Shown: in pieces, positions 1,763 to 61,100 of the stretch | Layout of the letters: every line of letters starts with the position of its first letter | Numbering within the stretch: position 1 is the first letter of the stretch | Assembly: GCA_963920705.1 (NCBI GenBank) | Contig: OY987227.1 | Coordinates: forward strand, 17,943,434-18,007,433 | DNA from: Odiellus spinosus | Taxonomy: Eukaryota; Arthropoda; Arachnida; Opiliones; Phalangiidae | Reading direction: 5' to 3' | Length of the DNA: 64,000 nt | Program-made: the position numbers and the translations under genes | The notes under the pieces: generated by a model | What the model saw: the letters and a program-made list of their open reading frames with translations, nothing else | Database searches by the model: none | Told to the model about the DNA's origin: nothing

Positions 1763-4700
1763 GCAATCGAATAATGTACACTCTCAAAACTCAGATTTTA
1801 GCGTCGTCTGCTTGAAACTAATATATATTTAATTTTTTTGTTGCATCTAAAAGTATTTCGAGGAAATAATCTTAGGTCTATATATCTTGAATTCCGGAAC
1901 AGGAAAGACCCACTAGCGTAATAGCCACGTGCAGGCACGATTGAGGGTATATGTATGGAGACCAGGACATAAGGCTGGCGTAGTTGTTAGTGGTGGCGGT
2001 AGGTTCACCCGGCTCTTTACGCGCGTGACCCCGGGACCGTAAATTTTCTTTTAACGAGCGCTGTTTGCTCGCATCTCGACAACGATGCTTTACTAGCTAT
2101 AAATTCGACCCCCGTAATGAAGGGATTATGTGCCCGAAGATAAATTATTGCTTCTTTTTATCGGTGGGCGCGGTATTACAGCGTCGACCCTGAGGGGGAA
2201 AAAAAAAAAATTGGTAGATGATGAGTGAGAGAGATATCTTTACCCCTCGTGAATGTCCCCTGGAAGAGGAGGTGGATCTCGACAATTTACAGACGACCGA
2301 CCGTCATAGAGAGTAAATTTTTTTGTTCCTTTACGGAAATTATTAGTATTCTGTCATGATTTTGTCCGTCTGCGGTATAGTCTGCCTAATAAGGAAATAC
2401 GACAATTTTCTCCTTCTTGACGCTGAAACAATTTTTTTCTTTCTTCTTATCTGCATTTTCGGTGTTCCACGCGAGGTTACGCTGTCGCGCACGAAGGCGG
2501 TCTTCATTTTAATTAATTTTCATATTAATGCTTATAGTTTAGCTAAGTATTTGATCTCAAAATGTGTTAGTTTCATTCCGAAGGACATTTAACTTGATCC
2601 GAGAATGTGATTTAATCAGATTTAACGTCGTTAATCAAGGAAGTGCTAGTGATAATTTTGCAGCTCTTATTAAATCTCAATTGAAAATACTGTGGGAACA
2701 AATGTTAAAAAAATGTTTTGCGCGACGGTCTTTATCGTAGTTATGTCTCATTTTTTATTTTTATTATCAAGAAAAAATATTTGGAATAAAAGGGAATGAC
2801 GCATGTGTATATTTCTTTCCTGTTGAGTAGTTTCTCAATATTTCTTGGAGGCTAAAGAAGAAGAGAGAAAAAAAAACGAAAATACAAGTCTCGCAGACTT
2901 TTACACTTGTTTTCTTTAGACATTTTAGAAATTCGAAACCTTCTTTACTAGACAATCATTTCACGCGTGAAAGATATTTTTTATTTCAGGCAGTTCCCTG
3001 TCAGTCAAGTTTCTAGTTTTCTACAATTCACAACCCTCTTCCTGATTGGCCCCCTTCTTTTTGACACGGTTTCCAAGTTCCAACAACAAAAGATTAGGCC
3101 TACACGGTTCAAAAACCGTCTTTTTCTCTCTAAATGTTCCCCTGTACACATTGACTGTAGTTGGCACCCTGTTATTACTCCTTTTAGTAAAAAAAATCTT
3201 CATTTTTACTCTAAAAAATGTAGGGATTATATTTTTAAGAAGTCCGTCTCTTTGACGAGGGCCTATAGCTCTATGCATAAAGTCTGTTCACCTTGTTCGA
3301 AGCAATTGCTATGAAGTTTAAAGTGGGTGGATTGTTAAACGCCTGCCAACTGGGTTTTTCTCCTAATTCAAACTCTGTAACGTTAACTTCTACAAGATAA
3401 CGAACCTTATACGTGTAAAAGAACGATGGCAGTTCGGGTTACTTATCCGTTTGTAATAAGACGTTTAAGGCGGGGAAATGCCATCGCGATATTCCCCGCG
3501 AGAAATCAAAAATATTTTTTTCCTGATGGGAGTTTTTTGCCTTTTGTATATTTGTGAGTTCTCAGACTGCCTTCTCTTCCACGCATGAGCTTCGCTAAAG
3601 TCAGCAACGGTATTTAGATTTCATCGTGTACAAAGATAGGCTCCCCTCTACAACTGAAACTCTCAAATAGTAAGAAATATCACCAAATCTCGCTCTGTGT
3701 AGCTTGAAACCCGCGCTCGATTTTGCTCGCAAGTCTTCTCCCATTCTTTCTCGAGGTGCGGGGACATTTGCGCCTCGCAGTTTTACTTCTTTTATATATT
3801 TTCTTTTGGGATTTCTTTTTTTAAAGAATAGCCCGGCTTCTCTGACTAAGACCTTTTTTATCCTCGTCATCCATTCTTCTTCATTTTGCCCTTGGGCAGC
3901 CGTTTGAGCAATTTATTGTGTAAAATCAGAATGGCGGGTTTTCTTACTGGTGACCCAGGTGGAACGGTCACTCGACGGGGAGTCTTAAGACGTACTATTC
4001 TGCGCGTCATAGTTACTGTGTACCACTTTTTTTTACCAAGTTGAAAATAGGAAATCGTACTGTATGTCGGGGTGGCGGAGTTGTAAATTTTCTTGGCTCG
4101 TATAATCCATCTGTAATAAAAAGAAATCTATGAAACTGTGGTTGACGTTTCACGCTACATCAGTCTTTGTTTTCGCGCGTCATTTGGAACTTCCTTCCTT
4201 CCCTTTTGCTTTACTTATTCATTTGTTTTTATTGGACGATTGTTTCTTGGCTTTTGTGTTCCTGGATGTCATCAAGCATCGTGAATATCCTAATGAGCAA
4301 TAGCGATGAGGTGTCGAATTGTTACGGGTAAAATTACGAGGTATAACGTTCCCTGATTGGTTGGGATATTTCTGCTGATATATCGAAGTTTCATTTTTCA
4401 AAGGGGTTGTTTCCATACCACAGTAATCTTAAGTCCTTATTTTAGAGTTGACCGCATTTAATAATGATTCAGACGCTTTAGAATGCTTTGTGCATAAGCT
4501 CAAATTTTTATGAAGTCAAGCCCATTTTCTTCTGTAGATAATTTGTATAGTTGAAACATTTCCAAGTAACAAAAACACGATTGTGAACTTGACTGTAAAG
4601 TCTACAGGTAGATCAGTTCGACCTTTCTGAACGTTCGAAGGCATTATATGCCTTTCTTTATCTCTGCGGTTTAGTTTAAGAGGGGAGCGTAGGTTTGTAT

Positions 4701-7700
4701 GTACTGAAATTTCCACACTATTGAATACATTTCATGGAAAGCTAAAAGGGGATTGTCTGGTAGTATCGATAGCCTTCTCACCACAATGCGCTACACCATA
4801 CCTCAATATATGCCAGCCAGGAGATGAGATACCAGCACCGAACTCCCCTCCTTTTCCTCGTCCTCATCTTCTTTATACGTAAGTTACGTTGGAAAGTTTC
4901 TTCTTTTCTCTCCTGGTCTGGTCTCTCGTCTCGTCCCAAGGTCTAATCACGCCATCTCTAAAGTTTCTGATACCGGAGACGGCGTTCTGTTGGGCGGAAC
5001 CTTCCATCTACTTTATAGTTTAGCTTCTTTCTTTTCTCTCTCGATCGAGTCTCTCTCGACTTAAAAAAAGAACCCTTATTATCCAACTTGCCCTTCAGCA
5101 ATCAATTCTTTACCTCCCCTTTCTAACCCTTACTTGTTAAATAGAGGCTGTAAAGGAAAATAATGTGAATTATGAATTATACACGTATTATAAGTTACAA
5201 TCTTAATCTAGACCCGAATGAATGTTTTTTTGCTGTCAATGAAGAAATTTTTAATTAGACTAATTAGACGCATTTTTATTTTAAAAACATTTGTAAACCT
5301 AACGGGAATGTAAGCTAAGATTCCGTATTCATGACACAATCCTTTAAGGACCTCTATCCTTTAAGGACCTCTAACGCTATTGCACTAGAAAAAATCTCAA
5401 CTTATATCAACATTCTCGAGACAGTGATTGGATTTTTGGGAGGGGGTATTTAGAAGTTAGTGCTTGTTTGGAGAATGATTTGAATCTAATTTTTGATTTT
5501 TTTCTCTCACACTCTCTTCTTAACCCTAACGATCCTAAACTCTTAAGGTTTGAAAGAAAAATAAATCTTTTGGTTGAAAAATTACTATATATTTTTGTTC
5601 AAAGCTTTTTTTATGACCACCCGGAATTTCTTAGATCATACGCTTAGAAAAAAGGTTTTTAGAAAAATCTCTCGCGGTTCTTCCTTATACGAAATCTCGA
5701 TTGTGGCGTTAGTGTAACTTGACAATATAAAAGTAACGTTATCAAAGTAAGAGAGTTGCCATTACTACATATTTTATATACAATATTCTGTTAAAAAACG
5801 CGTTTCGGTTTTCTACCGTGAAATTCAGTCCCCGGGAAAAATTAAGAAGGTCGAATGACAGCGGGCGGTTTCGCCAATGACGACACTGCACTAACTCTTA
5901 TTGTCAAAATCAGTTTGAAATAGCAGTACGAACCCTGCTAAAATTCTAGTAATGCTACTAGGGTTCGATTCTTAGTAAAAGGCGTTATTTACCGATTTGT
6001 ACACGCTGTAGTCTCAAACTCTAAAAAAAATACTTAATACCCAAGCACCACCATCTTTTAATATACCAGTTTCGTTATGTGTTTGAATTTTTTTTTTTTT
6101 TATTCTTCTTCTGCTGCTATTTCTTTTAAGCTCGCTCCCGAGGGGATATTAAAACTTAGTTGCGTAAGCGGCTTATCGAGTCACGCTCATTTTCGTTTTA
6201 AAGAAAAGGTTCGCGCACCCAGTTTGGCGAGTTTCAAATTTTTAGTTCTTTGGAGAATGATGTTCAAGAAGTTGGAGAATTGAAAAAAATGAAATAATAG
6301 TAAAATTGTTAATGATAAATTTAGAAAACCTATAGTATATTTAGACCTATAGTATACGCTTAAATTTTGTATATTTTTATGGGTTATTTTTGGAAATTTT
6401 GCTCTATTTCTATTAGTGGCGAGGCAGGATTTTAATATTTTAAAATAATCTAGGGAATATCTACTTTCTAACGAATATAACTGTTTCATGAACTTCAAAT
6501 AAATAGACAGACTAAAAATAGTTTCCGACAGATTCATGAATAACAAAATAGACATAGACGAAAAATCAATTTTTAATTCACGAATAAATAGATATTTTCC
6601 AAAAATAGCAAAATATATTTTAAAATATTCTCTTTATTCTTATGCAGGAATGATTATAATTATGTAAATGATAAGCGATCTGATTCGTCACAATACTTTT
6701 TGATTCTAACTTATGTACTCTATGGACTTTTGTCCCTCGACATTTTAACTTCGAAGAGAAGGGAGGTCGATAAGAACTAAGTTTAACCCTTATGACGTCG
6801 CGCGACCCGGTTAATATACGAGACTCCAGGGACGCGAAAGAGTTTTCAGACGACGATGACGGGATTTTAGGCTTGTGTTGGCCGCGAGCTACGTTGGACG
6901 CGCGATAAAAAGGAAAGGGGAGAAAAGGGTGTATTCGATCGCGCGCACGCCCAGCGAGATTAATCGCCCCAAGACAAATACTTCGTGATGAAGGCGCCTA
7001 GAACGAAGTCCACCGCTGCGCTGTTATATAGAAAATGGCCCGAGAGTCATTCCCGAGAAGTATAGCTCCCCTCTATGTTTAAACGAACTCTTCGACGTAC
7101 TCGGGGGAACGATTTTATAAGTTTGATCCTCTAGCAGTGTTGGGGAACGACTCTGCAAGGAGTCTTTCGCGTCTTTGACTAAGGAGCGTGTACCGATGGG
7201 GCCCAGACCCCTCTATGTCTCTCGGTTAATCCCAGTGGCTGCGATACTTGTATCTTATTATTGTTTGACCTGGACTAACGAAAGTTCCCTCTCCCATACG
7301 CTCGCGATCATTACGCTCGAGGAACTCTAGCTAGGAAGAGATTACATTCCAGAATTTGTTTCTATCAAATTCGCTGTAATCTAAATTTAGCGTGGAATAA
7401 CGGGTTAGATTTAAATAACGTCGATTATAGTTCGGGCTTCACTAACCGATTTAACTCGTCATCTTGAAAATCTGCTTACTCAATTTGGAATGCAAGGATG
7501 TTTAATCACGTTCGCGTGAAAGTTAAATTATTTTTGTACACAGTTTATACGCCGTTGTTGAATCTATAGTTTTGCCTTGTAATTGTTGGCGCGCATGATG
7601 TGAACACGTAAGCTTGGTAGCAAAATATTGAAAAACCTTTGCAGGGGTTATTTGTTTTCCTTTTGGAATAGATGAATAGCTCTTAAGTATAACAGTTTTT

Positions 7701-8589
7701 GTTAGGAGTAGATCCTCGGCGAAATTGGGAGTGTCGAAAGTGTGTACTAAATAGAATTACGCTTTCTAGAGTTAAAAAATGATTTCTCGTTCTTAAACAA
7801 TTATAATTTGTCTATACCTCCTAGAAACCAACCTTGAAACTTTAAAATTTAACTCATTTAAAACCAGTTTTGTGGGGAAATTGTTAATGATTCTAATATT
7901 GCCATGGTTATCTCCAAAATTATATATAAATTTTGGTAGGATTTATATATAATTTCAAAATTAGTTTACCTTCCACGCTGTACGCGTATATAGTGATTGA
8001 ATAATATGACATGCATTTCACCATCAAAATCAAATGCGAACTGGTTTAAGTTGGGTCAACCCTCGTTTTTCGTTGAAGATACGCTATTTTGTCACGGTAG
8101 TTTTCACGAAGCGAGATTGGAAACAAAGTGCTTGGCTGGTCATTAAGGAGTCTGGCAAACAAAGGCGAGAAAGAGAGAGCGAGATATAAACCCCATGTTT
8201 AGGGGCAGACACGATTACGACGACTGTACTATATCCTATAAACCATAAAGATTTCTTTTCCGTTTTTTTTTCTCTATTCACTCAGATAGTATATAGAATA
8301 GACCTGGTATAAGATTGCGCCCTTAAAATTACTACGGAGCACGTATTGAGATTCCTCCCCGCCCCCCTTTTTGTACTAGGATCAATTTGTAACAGCTTTA
8401 AAGCTAGGGGGAAAACTGTTCAATATTGAGTAGCACGTGTTCTAGAATAATTATACCGAAAAGATTCAATATTCAGATATTCAATTTAATCTCCCTTCTT
8501 TTTTTTTTACAAAAACTAATTTACCATCAAACATTCTTAGAACACTTTAATCATAATAATTTTTGGTATAATTATCTTATTATAGACCT
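1763..8589. other. Non-coding DNA upstream of the homeobox exon
   Basis: No exon recognised. Contains an 18-bp tandem pair (CTTTAAGGACCTCTA type) at about 5341-5373, a short hairpin at about 5928-5970 (CGAACCCT/AGGGTTCG), T-rich tracts, and a somewhat GC-richer stretch at 6780-7330. The short frames on both strands overlap each other and show no conserved motif. Confidence 0.6.
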
Positions 8590-8767
8590 AGTGGGGGAAG
8601 ATATGCCACGTGATGTGACGTCACACTAGCTAGAATGTTTCTCTAAATTAAAGACAGTACAAGTTTACACCCCTGGGTCTACGGTGTTTAACCGGGATAA
8701 GCATTCAATCCACCTGGTGAAAACCGACAGTGGTCACGTAATCCGATCACGTGGTTTTTCCCCCACT
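8590..8767. mobile_element. Inverted-repeat MITE-like element (178 bp)
   Basis: AGTGGGGGAA followed by CCACGTGAT and a TGACGTCAC-like stretch at the left pairs with the mirror arrangement ending CACGTGGTTTTTCCCCCACT at the right. Arms are about 35 bp with mismatches. No clear target duplication was found. The CACGTG cores in both arms are E-box sites. Confidence 0.55.
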
Positions 8768-10432
8768 TAGTCTATGTTTCACTCTGATTTTAGTATTATA
8801 TGTTTTAAAGGGTGGGTGTAAAGCGAAATTGTGTTATTGAATTAGGCCTAACTGATGACACTTGAAGGAATTATTAGTGATCGAATGATAGAGTCCCTTG
8901 AAATGATATTATTTCATGGTAGTAGATTAGCTTCGTCTAATTATTTGACACACTGTTTGTCTATTTTCAAATCTCTATTCTTAATATTTGTTCTTTGGCA
9001 AATCTTTGGCATTAAAAGACCAATGGAAACCAAGATCAAATTTAAGTATACGACGTTAATTTAACTTCAAGGGTAAAGATCTCTTTCCTTAGCCCATGAA
9101 TGTTTCCTTTCTTCCTTAAACCTTACATAGTTAGGAAAGTTTTAAGCCGCTAGGAGCGCAACAGACGTAGCGATTTTCTGTATTCATTGTATCCGCGTCG
9201 TCTGCTTACATCCAATTGAAAACAATTAATATAACCATTTTATTCTGCAGTTAGATTAAGAATACTTGTTCCGATGGACGTCGTTAAAGCCACTTAATTT
9301 ACGTTTTCACCCTCGCTTTATTATTTTAACTAAAACACAACGTATGATAATCATGATGGCTAATAAGCCGTGTGACATAAAATATACACTTTGAATTCCA
9401 AAATTAATGAAGGTTCGCTAACAAGGGGTAAACGTGACATTTTCCAGGTTGAGAATCGACTGTATAGTTAGTGAATGAATTTTTTGAAACCCAGTTGGTT
9501 TCCGCTTTCACCAGTGGTTTATTCTCAGCGTGAAAGACATTTAAACGTGGTGTGAGATGGTGGAAATGGCAGCTGTTTTTTTCGATTAATAATCGGGAAA
9601 GGTTTTTTCGCGCGCATTTACTTTTGAGTAGATAGGATAAAAAGAGCTAGAGACACCGAGCCAGACTGAAAGCACGCGGCAACATTGAAACGCCTATATC
9701 TTAGAAGAGAAATTAGTTCAATCTTTTCTCTTTTTGCGACGTGCCTGTCTAGTCCCCTTGACGAGGAAGATGGAGTAGGATGAATCTTTGAAATCACATT
9801 TTAAAAGTCGCGTTTCCATGTCCCATTGCAAAAAAACGAAAATAAAGTAGCACTAACGATCGACTGAAGAAGGGCCTGGGCTCGAAACGTCTCGTAAATT
9901 AAGTTTTTCGTTCAATACCATGTCGTTTTCTCTGAAAAAAAAATGAGAAAATTCAAAAATTAAATTGTTTCGTGAATGGTATATAGGTCGCAATTAATCT
10001 TCCAAGTCACTTGTGGAAAGATATTAAGTAATTTGCCTTCTAGAGCAGTGTTTGGAGTACACCCCTTATACCAAATCCTCAAAATACATAATTATATATG
10101 TAACATGTCCGTCGCTAACGCTAAACTTTACACGCGTCATATTAATCATTTTACGCTTTTTGTTCAAGAAAAGCTAGTAAAATTTTGTAGCGAATTGATA
10201 AGCAATGTTAAACTTCTTTGCTAAAAAAGTAGTCAATGCAAACTCCCCTTGAACACGACTTTGAAATTCATTTATTAAGCTTGCGTTAGGCTTCGTGTTT
10301 TAACAGGGCTTATGTTTTTACTATGTTTAACAAGAGTTTATTTAAAACAAATTTAGTTTCGAGATTTAAATGATTTTTAATAAAATTGAGACCTGTTTCC
10401 GTAGTAAAATATTAAGGAAGGGTCTCTGTAAT

Positions 10433-39969: not shown

Positions 39970-40130
39970 GTTTTTCGTTATGGTCAGCCGGTGACGCGAG
40001 TGTCGGTTCCGGGGATGGAACGGGAGAAGACGAAGACGAAGAAAGGGGCAAGAAGAGGCAAAAAAAGAGAGGGATTTTCCCTAAAGTAGCCACCAATATA
40101 ATGCGAGCTTGGCTTTTCCAACATCTCACG
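39970..40130 (+). CDS. hth: Meis/homothorax homeobox gene, exon with N-terminal half of the TALE homeodomain
   Basis: Internal coding exon of a TALE homeodomain transcription factor of the Meis/homothorax family, a nuclear DNA-binding partner of Pbx/Extradenticle and Hox proteins. The translation begins with a Gly/Ser linker, runs through an acidic stretch (GEDEDEE) and a basic arm (KKRQKKRG), then gives [19 protein letters not shown], which is homeodomain helix 1 in Meis-type form. The paralogous Prep/Pknox and Tgif proteins differ here (for example VLPKHATNVMRSW). The exon is bounded by an AG acceptor at 39968-39969 (ttggcag) and a GTAAGC donor at 40131. It enters in phase 1 and leaves in phase 0 after the Thr codon, as I recall for vertebrate MEIS genes. 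An open frame runs on past the donor, but those residues (VSVSFFRK) are intronic and unlike the family. Ile-Met instead of Ile-Leu at NIMRAW argues against an insect. The upstream exon was not found. Confidence 0.95.
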
Positions 40131-54175: not shown

Positions 54176-55941
54176 TTAAATACGATGATTGAAGAAAAAC
54201 ATTTATAAAGCTTTAAAATTCAAAATTATTCTGATTTTTTGATAATTTAATAACTTATCGTGTTCGAGACCCAGTTATTTATTTTCTACAGGTTTGAATC
54301 CCATCTTCATCTATGGTTTTTTTACGACACACATTCGTAACTAGATTTTCTCTCGACGGGATGATCGAGTGTTTAAACTATCAAAATTTCGATTTTTGAG
54401 TTTATTTTTGAGATGGGCGAAAATTTAATTATATTAAAATTAAGAGGAGTGAGAAGCGGACACGCGAAAACAATACCTTTCATAAACATTTAATTAAAAT
54501 TCTCGGCCCGCGCGGTGAGGAAAGGGGAAACAGTCTGGTTTATCAGCAAACATTTCATAAAATTCGTAGCTCGTCCCCTCAGCTCGCCGGAACGAGCGAA
54601 ATGTAATTAAAAAAGAAGAGGTAAAAGCCGAGAGAAGGAGAGAGAAAGAGAGACATGATAGAATGAAAGTAAATTAATCTTTCCCGTCCCACGGTCGACT
54701 CCGCTATGGTATTATCCCATCCAAGTGTTAGCCTATATATTACATACAGTCCAATCCGGGACAAAGACTTATCAAAACAATTTTGGGTGCTGGACGGGGC
54801 CACGAGTAAAACTACTCTTAATCTTTCTGGTTCGCGAAAGAGAGTATGTAAATGATGCTAAACGTATTTCTACGGGGTTATCACGCTACAGTGTGAAAAA
54901 TCGGGAATTATAGAAAGATTTAGGGAGTTGAAAAATAGGATAAAAAGCTGGAGAAAAGTCTGGGAATTGATAATCAGCCGCGAACATTCGGAATTTAGTG
55001 GTCAAGCCAATTTACACTAAAAAATATTGATTTGTGATTGGCCCAAATCTTGTTAAAAGAGTTCAAAATAGTATCCGATAAATTCTGTTTATTTTTCGTT
55101 TCCACACTCCCTTCGAGCGCGTATACGCATGGGTCGAAAAGGATTTAACCCCATCTGCTCTCCTCGCTAGCCCTCTATATACTTTTAACTCTTTCTCGCT
55201 GGTGTTAGGGGCCTAAAACTGATAAGACAAGACCCAGGGAATCCTTCCTAACTGTACAGAATAAACGGGCGTGCGCCCAAAGTGTGTCTTTCTAATTAAA
55301 GTTTGGGGAGACGCGCGTGGTGGGATGAGCTCGCGTCGTGTTTTCGTCCAGATTACTATCAAAACTTTCTCGCTTAAGAGGATGAAGAGACGGGAAAGGG
55401 GAGAGAAAGAGCGAGCAAGGACTCTTAGAGGCTGCGAGGCAGGAGAGAAAGGGGACAGAAAGAAATATATCACTTTTCACACTTAACAGAACGATTCAAA
55501 TTCCGTCCTGTGTAAGTTCGTACCCAACACGACAACAGTATACGCGGTCTAAGGGATTTGGCTTCTGGCTCTATTGTATTTTAATCTGGGATAGACCGCC
55601 CAGCTCCATCCCCATCCCCTGTTTTTAATCCGGCCCTTTTTTGATCCTATACCAGTTTTAATTAACTGGTACATTGCTCGGTAACTGTTCTTGAATAAAG
55701 GGTAAATCGTGGAAGGAAAGAATTTTGACTCTAAAAGACTGGTGGATGAAACGCGTGAATTTGCAGGAATGGATGAGTCGATCCGCCAAATAGGTTTTGG
55801 TTGTTTTTAGGAGTTAAAAAGCACTGTGAGAAGGAATATCGTACTTATAATTAACCACAAAAATAAAGCCACTACAGAAACATTTTTATACCATACTTTT
55901 GTTGAAATATATAGTTTTAATTCAAGGCAATTAAATTGTTA

Positions 55942-57009
55942 TTAATTGTTATTAATTTTCAACTTCCGGTTTTCCTCTAGCCGTAGCTTCAACTGAGATT
56001 GTTGTTTAAGAAAATCAGTATCGAGTTGAATAAGTGAAAATTTTCTCAACCATAATCTAACTAGTAATTCGTCCTCTTCCAATAATTGAGCCAATTTATT
56101 AAGAAGGGATTCGTATTTATCATCACCGTAAGCGGCTGATTGAGTAAAATATTCAAAGGGTATTTCGATTTTATTATAATCCCCAATATTCTCGTCCCAT
56201 ATTGTTACTCGAAAATACGGAGCTCCTGGAAAAACGACCACTCTAGCCATCAAACGAGTACCACGAATGACGTATCTGTCTTCCATGTTGTTTAGAAGGG
56301 TTAATTTTCCGACTAAATCCATTCGTTGAAACGATCCACCAACGTAGATTCCCATTCTGAATTTATTTACCGGAATGGCAGGGTTTTTCTGATCGCCGTA
56401 CAATTCCACGAAATTTTCGCTTATGCAAGTGAATTTAGCGACGCGTTTACCAAAATCCACCGTTTTATCACTCGGGGATAGATTATCCAACATCGTTACG
56501 GCTGCTTTGTTTGCACCCATCGCGTTATCGAATATGATGAAGCCAATTCGGCCGTTCAATTCAAACTTGATGGTCAAAATTGCGTGACCGTGGAAATAAA
56601 ATAAATGGTGGTGGTTTCTTTCCATTTCCTTCGTTATTTTATACGTCATGTCGCGAAAATTCAGAGTAGTTGTGGTGACGTAAGGAGCCACAATTACGTC
56701 CGGATATTCTTGAGTTAATTCCGTCGACAGTAGCCGTTTAAGTTTCAAAGTTCGACCTCTGCACGTGAGTGTATTTTCGTCCAACTGCTCTACCTGGTAC
56801 TGACGATAGAAATCCAAAAGGGGCAAGGGCTGCGATTTGTACGCTTCGTAGAAATCTACGTAACAACGCACTCGATCGTGATCCTGGTCGTATAACACTT
56901 TGTCCGTCACGTTTTGACATTTCTCGACAAAGAGTTTCAGTTCTTCAATCGTGTTGAACCTCATCTTCTTTATATCGTAGTTCCACGACTCCAAAGTCAG
57001 ATCGTCCAT
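55942..57009 (-). CDS. Intact 355-aa ORF of unknown family nested antisense in the Meis/hth intron
   Basis: By far the longest ORF in the window: ATG to TAA, single exon, antisense to and inside the intron between the two homeobox exons. I do not recognise the family. The protein is soluble-looking, with no signal peptide or membrane segment and few cysteines. Residues 1-60 look helical and charged. Residues 104-290 are rich in alternating beta-type segments with conserved-looking turns (a His cluster at 133-142, FDNAMGANKAA at 160-170, FPGAPYFRVTIWDENIGDY at 260-278). Residues 297-355 form a Leu/Glu/Lys-rich helical tail, probably coiled coil. The last four residues and the stop fall in a two-copy 10-bp repeat, so the C terminus may have been altered by slippage. 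No poly(A) tract follows, which argues against a recent processed copy. It could be a nested host gene, a domesticated transposon gene or a captured viral gene; the sequence does not decide. That it is a real coding sequence is likely from its length in AT-rich DNA. Confidence 0.75.
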   Translation of the reverse strand: MDDLTLESWNYDIKKMRFNTIEELKLFVEKCQNVTDKVLYDQDHDRVRCYVDFYEAYKSQPLPLLDFYRQYQVEQLDENTLTCRGRTLKLKRLLSTELTQEYPDVIVAPYVTTTTLNFRDMTYKITKEMERNHHHLFYFHGHAILTIKFELNGRIGFIIFDNAMGANKAAVTMLDNLSPSDKTVDFGKRVAKFTCISENFVELYGDQKNPAIPVNKFRMGIYVGGSFQRMDLVGKLTLLNNMEDRYVIRGTRLMARVVVFPGAPYFRVTIWDENIGDYNKIEIPFEYFTQSAAYGDDKYESLLNKLAQLLEEDELLVRLWLRKFSLIQLDTDFLKQQSQLKLRLEENRKLKINNN

Positions 57010-58116: not shown

Positions 58117-58193
58117 CATCCTTACCCGTCCGAAGACCAGAAAAAACAGCTTGCTCAAGATACGGGACTAACGATCCTTCAAGTAAACAATTG
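58117..58193 (+). CDS. hth: Meis/homothorax homeobox gene, exon with TALE loop and helix 2
   Basis: The next exon of the same gene. After an ATAG acceptor the frame reads HPYPSEDQKKQLAQDTGL and then TILQVNNW, with the last Trp codon split TG|G by the GTGAGT donor at 58194. This covers the three-residue TALE loop extension, helix 2 and the start of recognition helix 3. The length of 77 bp and the split Trp codon match the equivalent vertebrate MEIS exon as I remember it. The peptide equals Drosophila Homothorax over this stretch, with Asp in SEDQ where vertebrates have Glu. The phase 0 entry fits the phase 0 exit of the exon at 39970-40130, so the two join directly across an 18-kb intron. The following exon, expected to encode FINARRR with the DNA-contacting Asn, is not in the window. 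The ORF is too short to be found by length alone. Confidence 0.96.
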
Positions 58194-61100
58194 GTGAGTT
58201 TTAAACGCTTTTATAGTCTTATTTTTAAGCCTATACCTAAGTTTTTGTAATATAATTTTGTTTGGTGAATAACAATGGGAGATGAAGGCTCTGAAATGAT
58301 AGAAAAACCTTCATCTAGGGTAGTTGTTATTATTCCTCTAAAAGTGTAATCTATCCAAAAATTCAACGAAGTATATTTTATGTTGAAACAAAGTATGAAA
58401 ACTCTTTTATCGTCGTTTCGAATCACGTTTGAACGTTATCTCATAGCCTATGTACATTTACTTCTCGTCTTATATAAATTTGGAATTTCGTAATTTCTTC
58501 CCGGCATGATGCTCGCCGGAAAAGAGTGAAGCCGCGTTATTAAGGGAGAAAATCGAGATTAAGAGTGAACGCGTTGCTTGGGAAAACCTTTTGGGAGGTG
58601 ATGGGGAGAAGCTGGGATGTAAGTGGCACGTCGCTTTTCTCCAGATAGGCGCTATAGGCTAAGCTCGAGGATTTAGGCTTAGCGTAACGTTGCGTGGAGA
58701 GAAGGACTACTGGTAGAAGAGAAGGAAAAGCGAGGGAGAACGCGGTGCGGTTGACATCCGCGGCGCGCTCGGTGATTAATTACTGCGGAAAATATAGCGG
58801 AGAGAGACTTAGCCGTCGCTGCGACACTCTTTTTACCCTTGTTTCCGACGTACTAGAACCCAACGCCGCCGCCGCCAGAGGCTCACTCGGAACCCCTTCA
58901 CATTGAGTCTCTGCCAAGCGTATCCCCGCAGCTCCCTTTGTATATAGGGGTACCATGGTGCTGATAATGTCGCGTAGAGTCCTCGGAACTTTGCTGGCGA
59001 CGATCCATATATCGAACTTCGCATCACCTATGTATGCGAAAAAAAAAGTGTACTATACCAAACAATCGAAAAACTCGCTCATTTGAAAGAAAGATCACGC
59101 TAATATCGTGTTTGATTAATTCTGGTTTAGAATTGATATATTTGGGGATAATAACTCCATCTTTAGGCGAGAGACGTCCGCCACAAACCATTAACTAGTG
59201 TGTCCACGAAAGAATGGGATTTGGGAATAATTAAGTCATTCGGGGAAAATCTAGGAAAAATTAGGGTCTCTATAGCAAAGCTAAAAACCTCAATAATTCA
59301 TGAGAAAATCTTATCCAGACAGTTTGTTAAACATAATCTAATCTCGCGAAGGATTATGCTCTATTAATATTCTTAACTCTTAATTTTACAACGTTGGTAT
59401 ATAATCCCTCGGTTTTTGTTGATCGTATTTAAAATCTACACTCATTGATCTGGTATTCGCGCGAAGTGTAAGCGATTTTTCGTGTATTTACTTTGGATAA
59501 TTTCATTCAACAGTCACTATATCTCAATTTATAATACTTTTAACATCAGTACAACAAATATTACACGCCCATTATAAATGTAAGCACTTTTTTAGATAGT
59601 TTTACAAGATCATCAACGAAAATTGAAATTGTTTTTTCTTTTTTTCATACTTCATTATATATTCAAGGCAGTCTGTATAAATTTCCGTATTCCCTAGTAT
59701 AGTCAAAGGCAGAGTATTGCCATCAATATTAAGATCCATTTGTGGGAAACGTTAATATATCTATAGTTTTTATCTGACGCACGCTTCACTTTTATACGTT
59801 GGTTGTTTTATCTCGAATGGTCGGAGGAGAAAAGGGTCGTTAAATATACATAATTCTCTTCAAAGGGGAGTTTGCGTAAAAGCGAAAGCTGAGGCTGATT
59901 GATACGTAATGTTGAGCTTAATAGAGTGAAAGTAGACACTGTGAACTTCTCTCGAACACGATTATAGTTAGATAATGCTCAGTTTTCAGCACCTGTAAGC
60001 TTGGTTACTATAGTTTTAATCTCTTGGTAAGCGTTTATTGTGTAGCTTCGCGAGCGCTGTAGTTTAAATCTGATTCGGTGTGCTTATGATCAAGTATACC
60101 GATGAATTCACGTATTTTTCAAGGAGGTAATATTTTACTTTAAATACCTACTGGGGCTGAAGGTAGAATCTATGAATTTCAAATCGCTACTAAAAGCATT
60201 ATATTTGCATATATTTGTTTAGTGTCCTCTCAATTATCACCGGATAGAGCAACGTAAGCTTTTATTTTATCGTATTTTTTAGGGTATTGTATTTCGTTTA
60301 GGGAAAAAACAAAAATACTATATAAGGTGGCTTATATTATATGGTTTTTAACGATATTGGAGAATATAATTTTTATCTTTATTGCGAAGGTCTGTCGAAT
60401 ATAATACGCGCTTTCTTACTTATCAGGATAATGTTTTTCTTTATTTTTTGGAACGAGAAAAAAAAAAAAAAAAAAAACTCGCGCTTATGGGCTGTCGATT
60501 TTACTACCTTACATTTTACGTATAGAAAACAAAAATCTTCTCCAATTTTCTTGAAGGCATATTTTTGACGTAGATTATAATCTATGGAACAACTTACGAA
60601 CTTACGCATATATGCGGACAACCTGTTTACCAAATAAGGTTTGTAAAAGGAAGATTGAAATATATATTATCGTGGAATAAAATAGTTTATGCGAGGGGTG
60701 TACAGAATACTAAGCATACTCAATGGTTAGGATACAATTAGCGGAACGGATAAAAAATGTAGAATATCGATAGCTTCTGCAAAAAGGAAAGTTATGTGCA
60801 AATGCTACTTCTAAACATGACGAAACTGGACCAGTAATTATGGAGTAGTAACTAAATTGAATTGAAAAATTGACCAAAATGCTGATCAACATTTGATGAT
60901 ATTTTTCGTCTGTTTGCTCCTTTTTTTGTTCAATTTAGAATAAAAAATTTAATTTTGCTAAAAATCCTTTTGTAAAATTCAATATAAAGTCCAATATTCG
61001 CCATTTTTTGTTTTCGCTTTTTGAATTTTTCAAGAGATTTTGAGATTTCAGAACTATTTTTGAGACAGATTGAGATTTCAATGTTAATTTTCCATAGCGA

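Follow-up and report, generated by a model that had tools for sequence, protein, structure and literature searches.

A long open reading frame lies antisense in an intron of a homeobox gene of Odiellus spinosus. The questions are whether it encodes a protein, where it came from and what its product might do. In this study, we analyzed the 64,000-nucleotide stretch of contig OY987227.1 that carries the frame (the window), and compared the frame with the rest of the genome.

The frame and its place in the host intron

The frame was checked at 55942-57009 on the minus strand. It runs from ATG to TAA over 355 codons with no internal stops, which confirms the intact 1,068-bp frame of 355 aa described in an earlier note on this DNA. 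Elsewhere in the window, the longest ATG frame encodes 122 aa, and one frame of 165 aa was found when TTG starts were allowed. In 200 simulated windows of 64 kb (order-2 Markov), the longest ATG frame had a mean of 126.0 codons and a maximum of 205. A frame of 355 codons exceeds this maximum, in line with the earlier view that its length is very unlikely by chance. The G+C content at its three codon positions was 0.466, 0.287 and 0.449.

The frame is bracketed by plus-strand exons that were identified by translation. The first part of a homeodomain (...LFQHLT) is encoded at 40065-40130, where the exon end was estimated from the translation, and the next homeodomain exon (HPYPSEDQ...VNNW) lies at 58117-58194. 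From the exon sequence, we take the host gene to be homothorax/Meis. The intron between these exons is about 18 kb long and splits the homeodomain, and 1.1 kb separate the frame from the exon that follows, as the earlier note had it. The entire coding sequence is therefore contained in a single host intron on the other strand, which is what we count as opposite-strand nesting. A possible poly(A) signal, ATTAAA, is found at 55916-55921 on the minus strand, 20 nt past the stop, as a consensus match only; AATAAA was absent from the 800 nt scanned.

Related loci and selection on the codons

The frame had been called an orphan, and this was not borne out. A tblastn search of the species' own 443-Mb assembly gave 21 rows with E up to 1.9e-5, which were read as 20 loci because one locus consists of two exons. 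The family thus has at least 20 loci in this genome, with the window's locus included, and such counts are lower bounds. The 20 loci show significant protein similarity along most of the sequence and have the invariant columns in common, and none of the 21 rows contained an internal stop in the matched stretch. Identities among members drop to 17-25%. The loci are spread over ten contigs, the window's contig counted, and the nested copy is the sole family copy within the window. Seven copies, 41-44% identical to the window protein, stand in tandem at C7:17.430-17.449 Mb (G000:C7:17430274-17448544; L002-L007 and a further one spanning L009/L010). The remaining twelve loci lie at C7:6.89, C17:12.67, C17:11.56, C2:15.97, C2:24.26, C14:1.12, C8:16.93, C6:17.20, C1:0.80, C1:1.48, C4:4.44 and C18:7.49 Mb. 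Queries with three divergent members added exons of four known loci and no new loci. Three rows from these searches hold one stop each, which we read as matches that probably overrun an exon end.

Gene structures were predicted from GT/AG sites and homology. A single open frame was found in 13 of the 20 members, namely the window gene, the seven array copies, C7:6.89, both C2 loci, C14 and C6, and putative introns were found in the other seven. In the two C1 genes, C4 and C18, the first intron falls at a common place behind TEIPx and a donor follows RNQ or RNK, and a third exon was located for C4 and one C1 gene. One putative intron each was assigned to C17:12.67 (908 nt, after GRTLK), C17:11.56 (1049 nt, before VDEN) and C8 (589 nt, after FYSQFK). 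The members with one putative intron each, at three differing places, are L014 (6447-6743, 4708-5577), L016 (5861-6121, 4038-4850) and L019 (around 4426-5364); in this mostly single-exon group, these single introns may possibly represent intron gains. In the tree, the window gene paired with C7:6.89 (support 82/85), adjoining C17:12.67 and the array, and the single-exon C6 gene (L020) joined the four multi-exon genes (100/99). Only five of the 17 inner branches of this tree are well supported and long branches meet, so its deeper order, and any reading of intron loss or gain from it, is tentative.

The earlier note had also suggested a domesticated transposase-associated gene, and the spread over ten contigs would favor this or a part of a mobile element. 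However, no transposase family in Pfam matched the window protein or two overlapping sets of 12 members (A1 and A2). A DNA-level genome search with the window copy, which skips very common words, returned the self-match only. In addition, seven paralogues do not share the flanks of the nested gene, compared over 600 nt on its upstream side and 400 nt on its downstream side (at best a stretch of 12 nt, E 0.30, and one of 24 nt at 79%, E 1.6), and the seven members with introns also speak against a mobile origin. We consider such an origin extremely improbable.

Selection was examined by pairwise codon likelihood in 18 pairs, with 2dlnL taken against omega=1. Between the window gene and three of the seven array copies, omega was 0.220-0.235 (2dlnL 61.8-66.8, dS above 2), well below 1 as the earlier note's proposed check with same-genome paralogues had asked. 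Against C7:6.89, omega was 0.075 (2dlnL 91.8) at a saturated dS of 7. Four more distant members gave 2dlnL of 15.9-51.3, with dS above 60 in three and 3.2 in one. Omega was also below 1 in L008-L002 and L008-L015, two pairs that neither include the window gene nor lie wholly within the array. Pairwise values do not single out the branch of the window gene. In three trios, omega on that branch was 0.176, 0.146 and 0.304 (2dlnL 5.0, 9.6 and 0.7). Omega=1 on this branch was rejected in two of the three trios, and the third uses a saturated outgroup. These results indicate that the codon changes of the window gene relative to its relatives fit purifying selection.

The array copies differed from this pattern. 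In 8 of the 21 possible array pairs, omega was 0.53-1.18 at a dS of 0.016-0.128, and omega=1 was rejected in one of these eight (2dlnL 5.7). The young array copies are a recent expansion, loosely constrained or diversifying. Their weak constraint, together with the one branch test of three that was not significant, could suggest that the window copy is itself a decaying pseudogene that has stayed open by luck. However, its omega of about 0.22 against the array copies and a frame open at dS above 2 argue against decay. Simulated neutral drift over 2000 replicates, with indels ignored, left a frame of this length open in 1.45% of them at 0.1 substitutions per site, in 0.1% at 0.2 and in none at 0.3, so neutral copies are rarely open even at far lower divergence. 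A decaying copy is therefore highly unlikely. Because the frame has genome-wide relatives and an omega well below 1, and would probably be broken under neutral drift, a nested protein-coding gene is supported, as the earlier note had proposed. On this sequence evidence, the single-exon frame at 55942-57009 is almost certainly a real coding gene of 355 aa.

Several other features were observed around the family loci and in the genome. Near a family member, a plus-strand frame at L016:8098-8745 carries FLSWGGKR, FGQWGGKR and FNNWGGKR units, which we take to be kinin-like, and a minus-strand frame at L016:9353-9613, likewise near a family member, carries PGFMGARG units, presumably tachykinin-like. 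A repeated element with the frames QKPMKPSFEVYYS...PLCMG recurs within and between L014, L016 and L019. Long tandem repeats with open frames lie beside family members at L015:689-2098 and at L014:2406-3179 and 8150-9622 (LIFKINQ, PPKTKPFK and TPSTASQR units). The TTAGG repeat is of the arthropod type. (TTAGG)5 had 10,296 matches in the genome, overlaps counted, and its reversed control had 0. Among the matches listed, all on C1, exact (TTAGG)5 occurs at dispersed places inside the contig, which means that telomere-type repeats are interstitial as well.

Invariant residues and the proposed enzyme

The earlier remark that the translation matches no familiar family stood up to profile and family searches, which gave no credible name or match for the family in Pfam, NCBIfam, PHROGs or the PDB sequences. 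For the window protein, Pfam returned no family at E up to 10 and NCBIfam no match at E up to 1, and the best hits in PHROGs (E 0.059) and among the PDB sequences (E 0.38) were judged to be chance. NCBIfam and PHROGs were queried with the window protein only. In profile searches of the PDB, A1 gave nothing at E up to 10, and the best A2 hit (E 0.22) was judged to be chance. Pfam scans of the 12 A1 and 12 A2 members returned families that touch one or two members each, with a best E of 0.0072, and these were also judged to be chance. A single-sequence structure model of the window protein, the sole model made, had a pLDDT of 33.5 and a pTM of 0.19 and is worthless, so the beta-rich core and helical tail described earlier are not established.

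The alignment of the 20 members revealed a set of fixed residues. Cys83 (C83, codon 56761-56763) and His142 (H142, codon 56584-56586) are invariant in 20/20 members, and position 161, D161 in the window protein (codon 56527-56529), is acidic in 20/20; these minus-strand coordinates were computed from the frame. C83 and H142 are separated by 59 residues, and H142 and residue 161 by 19 residues. W9, F18, Y54, K58, G156 and V223 are also invariant. The member C1b, read over 350 residues because its locus ends within the last exon, contains a single Cys, which is the C83 one. The highest 19-residue hydropathy mean of the window protein was 1.09, and the value near the N-terminus was -0.39. This mean stayed under 1.6 in 18/20 members, and the other two, C17b and L017, reached 1.66 and 1.64.

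Because C83, H142 and the acid are kept in all 20 members, C1b has a single Cys and hydropathy is low, a soluble Cys-His-acid enzyme is proposed. In this enzyme, C83 would act as the nucleophile toward an acyl or amide substrate, with H142 as the general base that activates C83, and D161 (E in many paralogues) would orient H142. A Cys-His-acid active site of the papain/transglutaminase-like type in the window protein is a tentative proposal, with a chance that we place slightly below even. A real nested family gene might instead encode a structural or binding protein, in which a role in folding or metal binding, and not in catalysis, conserves the Cys, His and acid. The lack of profile similarity to known enzymes, the six other residues that are equally invariant and the D/E swap at position 161 are consistent with this. 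However, Cys and His are kept in every member despite identities as low as those given above, and C1b keeps no Cys besides the C83 one. We regard a structural or binding role as a possible explanation, though a rather doubtful one.

Transglutaminase-like and papain-like enzymes have their residues in the order Cys, His, acid. The family resembles these enzymes (PF01841 and kin) in keeping the same order and differs from PF01841 enzymes in that its acid column is often E (14 of 20, with D in 6). PF01841 had no match among the 12 A1 or 12 A2 members. The genome has five separate PF01841 matches, four of them above the cut-off. When the family was compared by hhalign with one of these genomic proteins, a transglutaminase that we take to be PNGase-like, the His residues were paired, but 70 of 100 shuffles reached at least the same score. 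These comparisons gave no support for membership in the transglutaminases, which was rejected.

Arylamine N-acetyltransferases (NATs) have the order Cys-His-Asp. This order and the acid position, which reads DPGY in 2/20 members and DPGF in a third, raised them as a candidate. In contrast to these enzymes, the family has no PF00797 match in the Pfam scans, and a genome-wide search with PF00797 was empty at E up to 1. A profile of bacterial NATs was built from E. coli nhoA and the best 80 of 588 relatives, with 31 of these 81 sequences kept. Against it, hhalign gave a score of 12.2, compared with 9.7 for the reversed control and 14.5-19.0 for the best 10 of 40 column shuffles, so the score lies below many shuffles. 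These results led us to reject membership in the arylamine N-acetyltransferases as well.

Origin of the nested gene and its comparison with other nested genes

The nested gene probably arose as a copy of another family member. This copy, free of introns, would have landed in the homothorax intron on the opposite strand, by retroposition or by DNA-level copying, and would have been retained there as a nested gene that is transcribed on its own. The window gene is without the introns present in seven of its 20-member family, and the single-exon L020 groups with multi-exon genes. No traces of retroposition were seen at the nested gene, and no poly(A) tract was visible on inspection of the 400 nt that follow the stop; its loss is expected at such an age.

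The earlier note had further considered a captured viral gene, which here would have been amplified in the host and fitted with introns later. The missing match to any cellular family and the single-exon structure of 13 members would agree with such a capture. However, there was no viral family match, and no relative was found in IMG/VR, which was searched with six peptide patterns and then one, or in 50,697 phage records, two collections that cover insect viruses only in part. The deep divergence within the genome and the introns of seven members also oppose it. We judge a viral origin very unlikely. The preferred reading is that a family gene was copied into the homothorax intron, was kept as a nested gene and encodes a Cys-His-acid enzyme. 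Taken as a whole, this chain may well hold, but we would not yet call it probable.

A broader view is that the loci form a so far undescribed family of Cys-His-Asp/Glu enzymes in arthropods, lacking a Pfam match and expanding in this lineage by dispersal and tandem duplication. One member would have been fixed in the homothorax homeodomain intron and, by being transcribed there, could influence the host gene. This remains speculative and, on balance, unlikely. Nesting as such could in principle touch the host gene.

The frame that had looked like an orphan is thus placed in a gene family with at least 20 loci, and the active site proposed for it is specific enough to be tested. It also adds a case of a gene nested within a conserved developmental regulator. 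A limited literature search found no reports on the family or on any gene nested in homothorax. In D. melanogaster, about 6% of the gene complement consists of nested genes (PMC3786989). The arrangement found here resembles that of Drosophila 2mit in timeless2 (PMC3786989) and C. elegans ceh-10 in polq-1 (PMC12274878), in which a coding sequence also lies within an intron of a gene of opposite orientation. Opposite-strand nested genes are common, and the nested arrangement is therefore ordinary. Such nesting is common in insects, so what makes this case interesting is the unnamed family with its recent tandem expansion. Unlike 2mit/timeless2 and ceh-10/polq-1, the host here is homothorax/Meis, and the nested gene comes from a family that is unnamed in the libraries searched.
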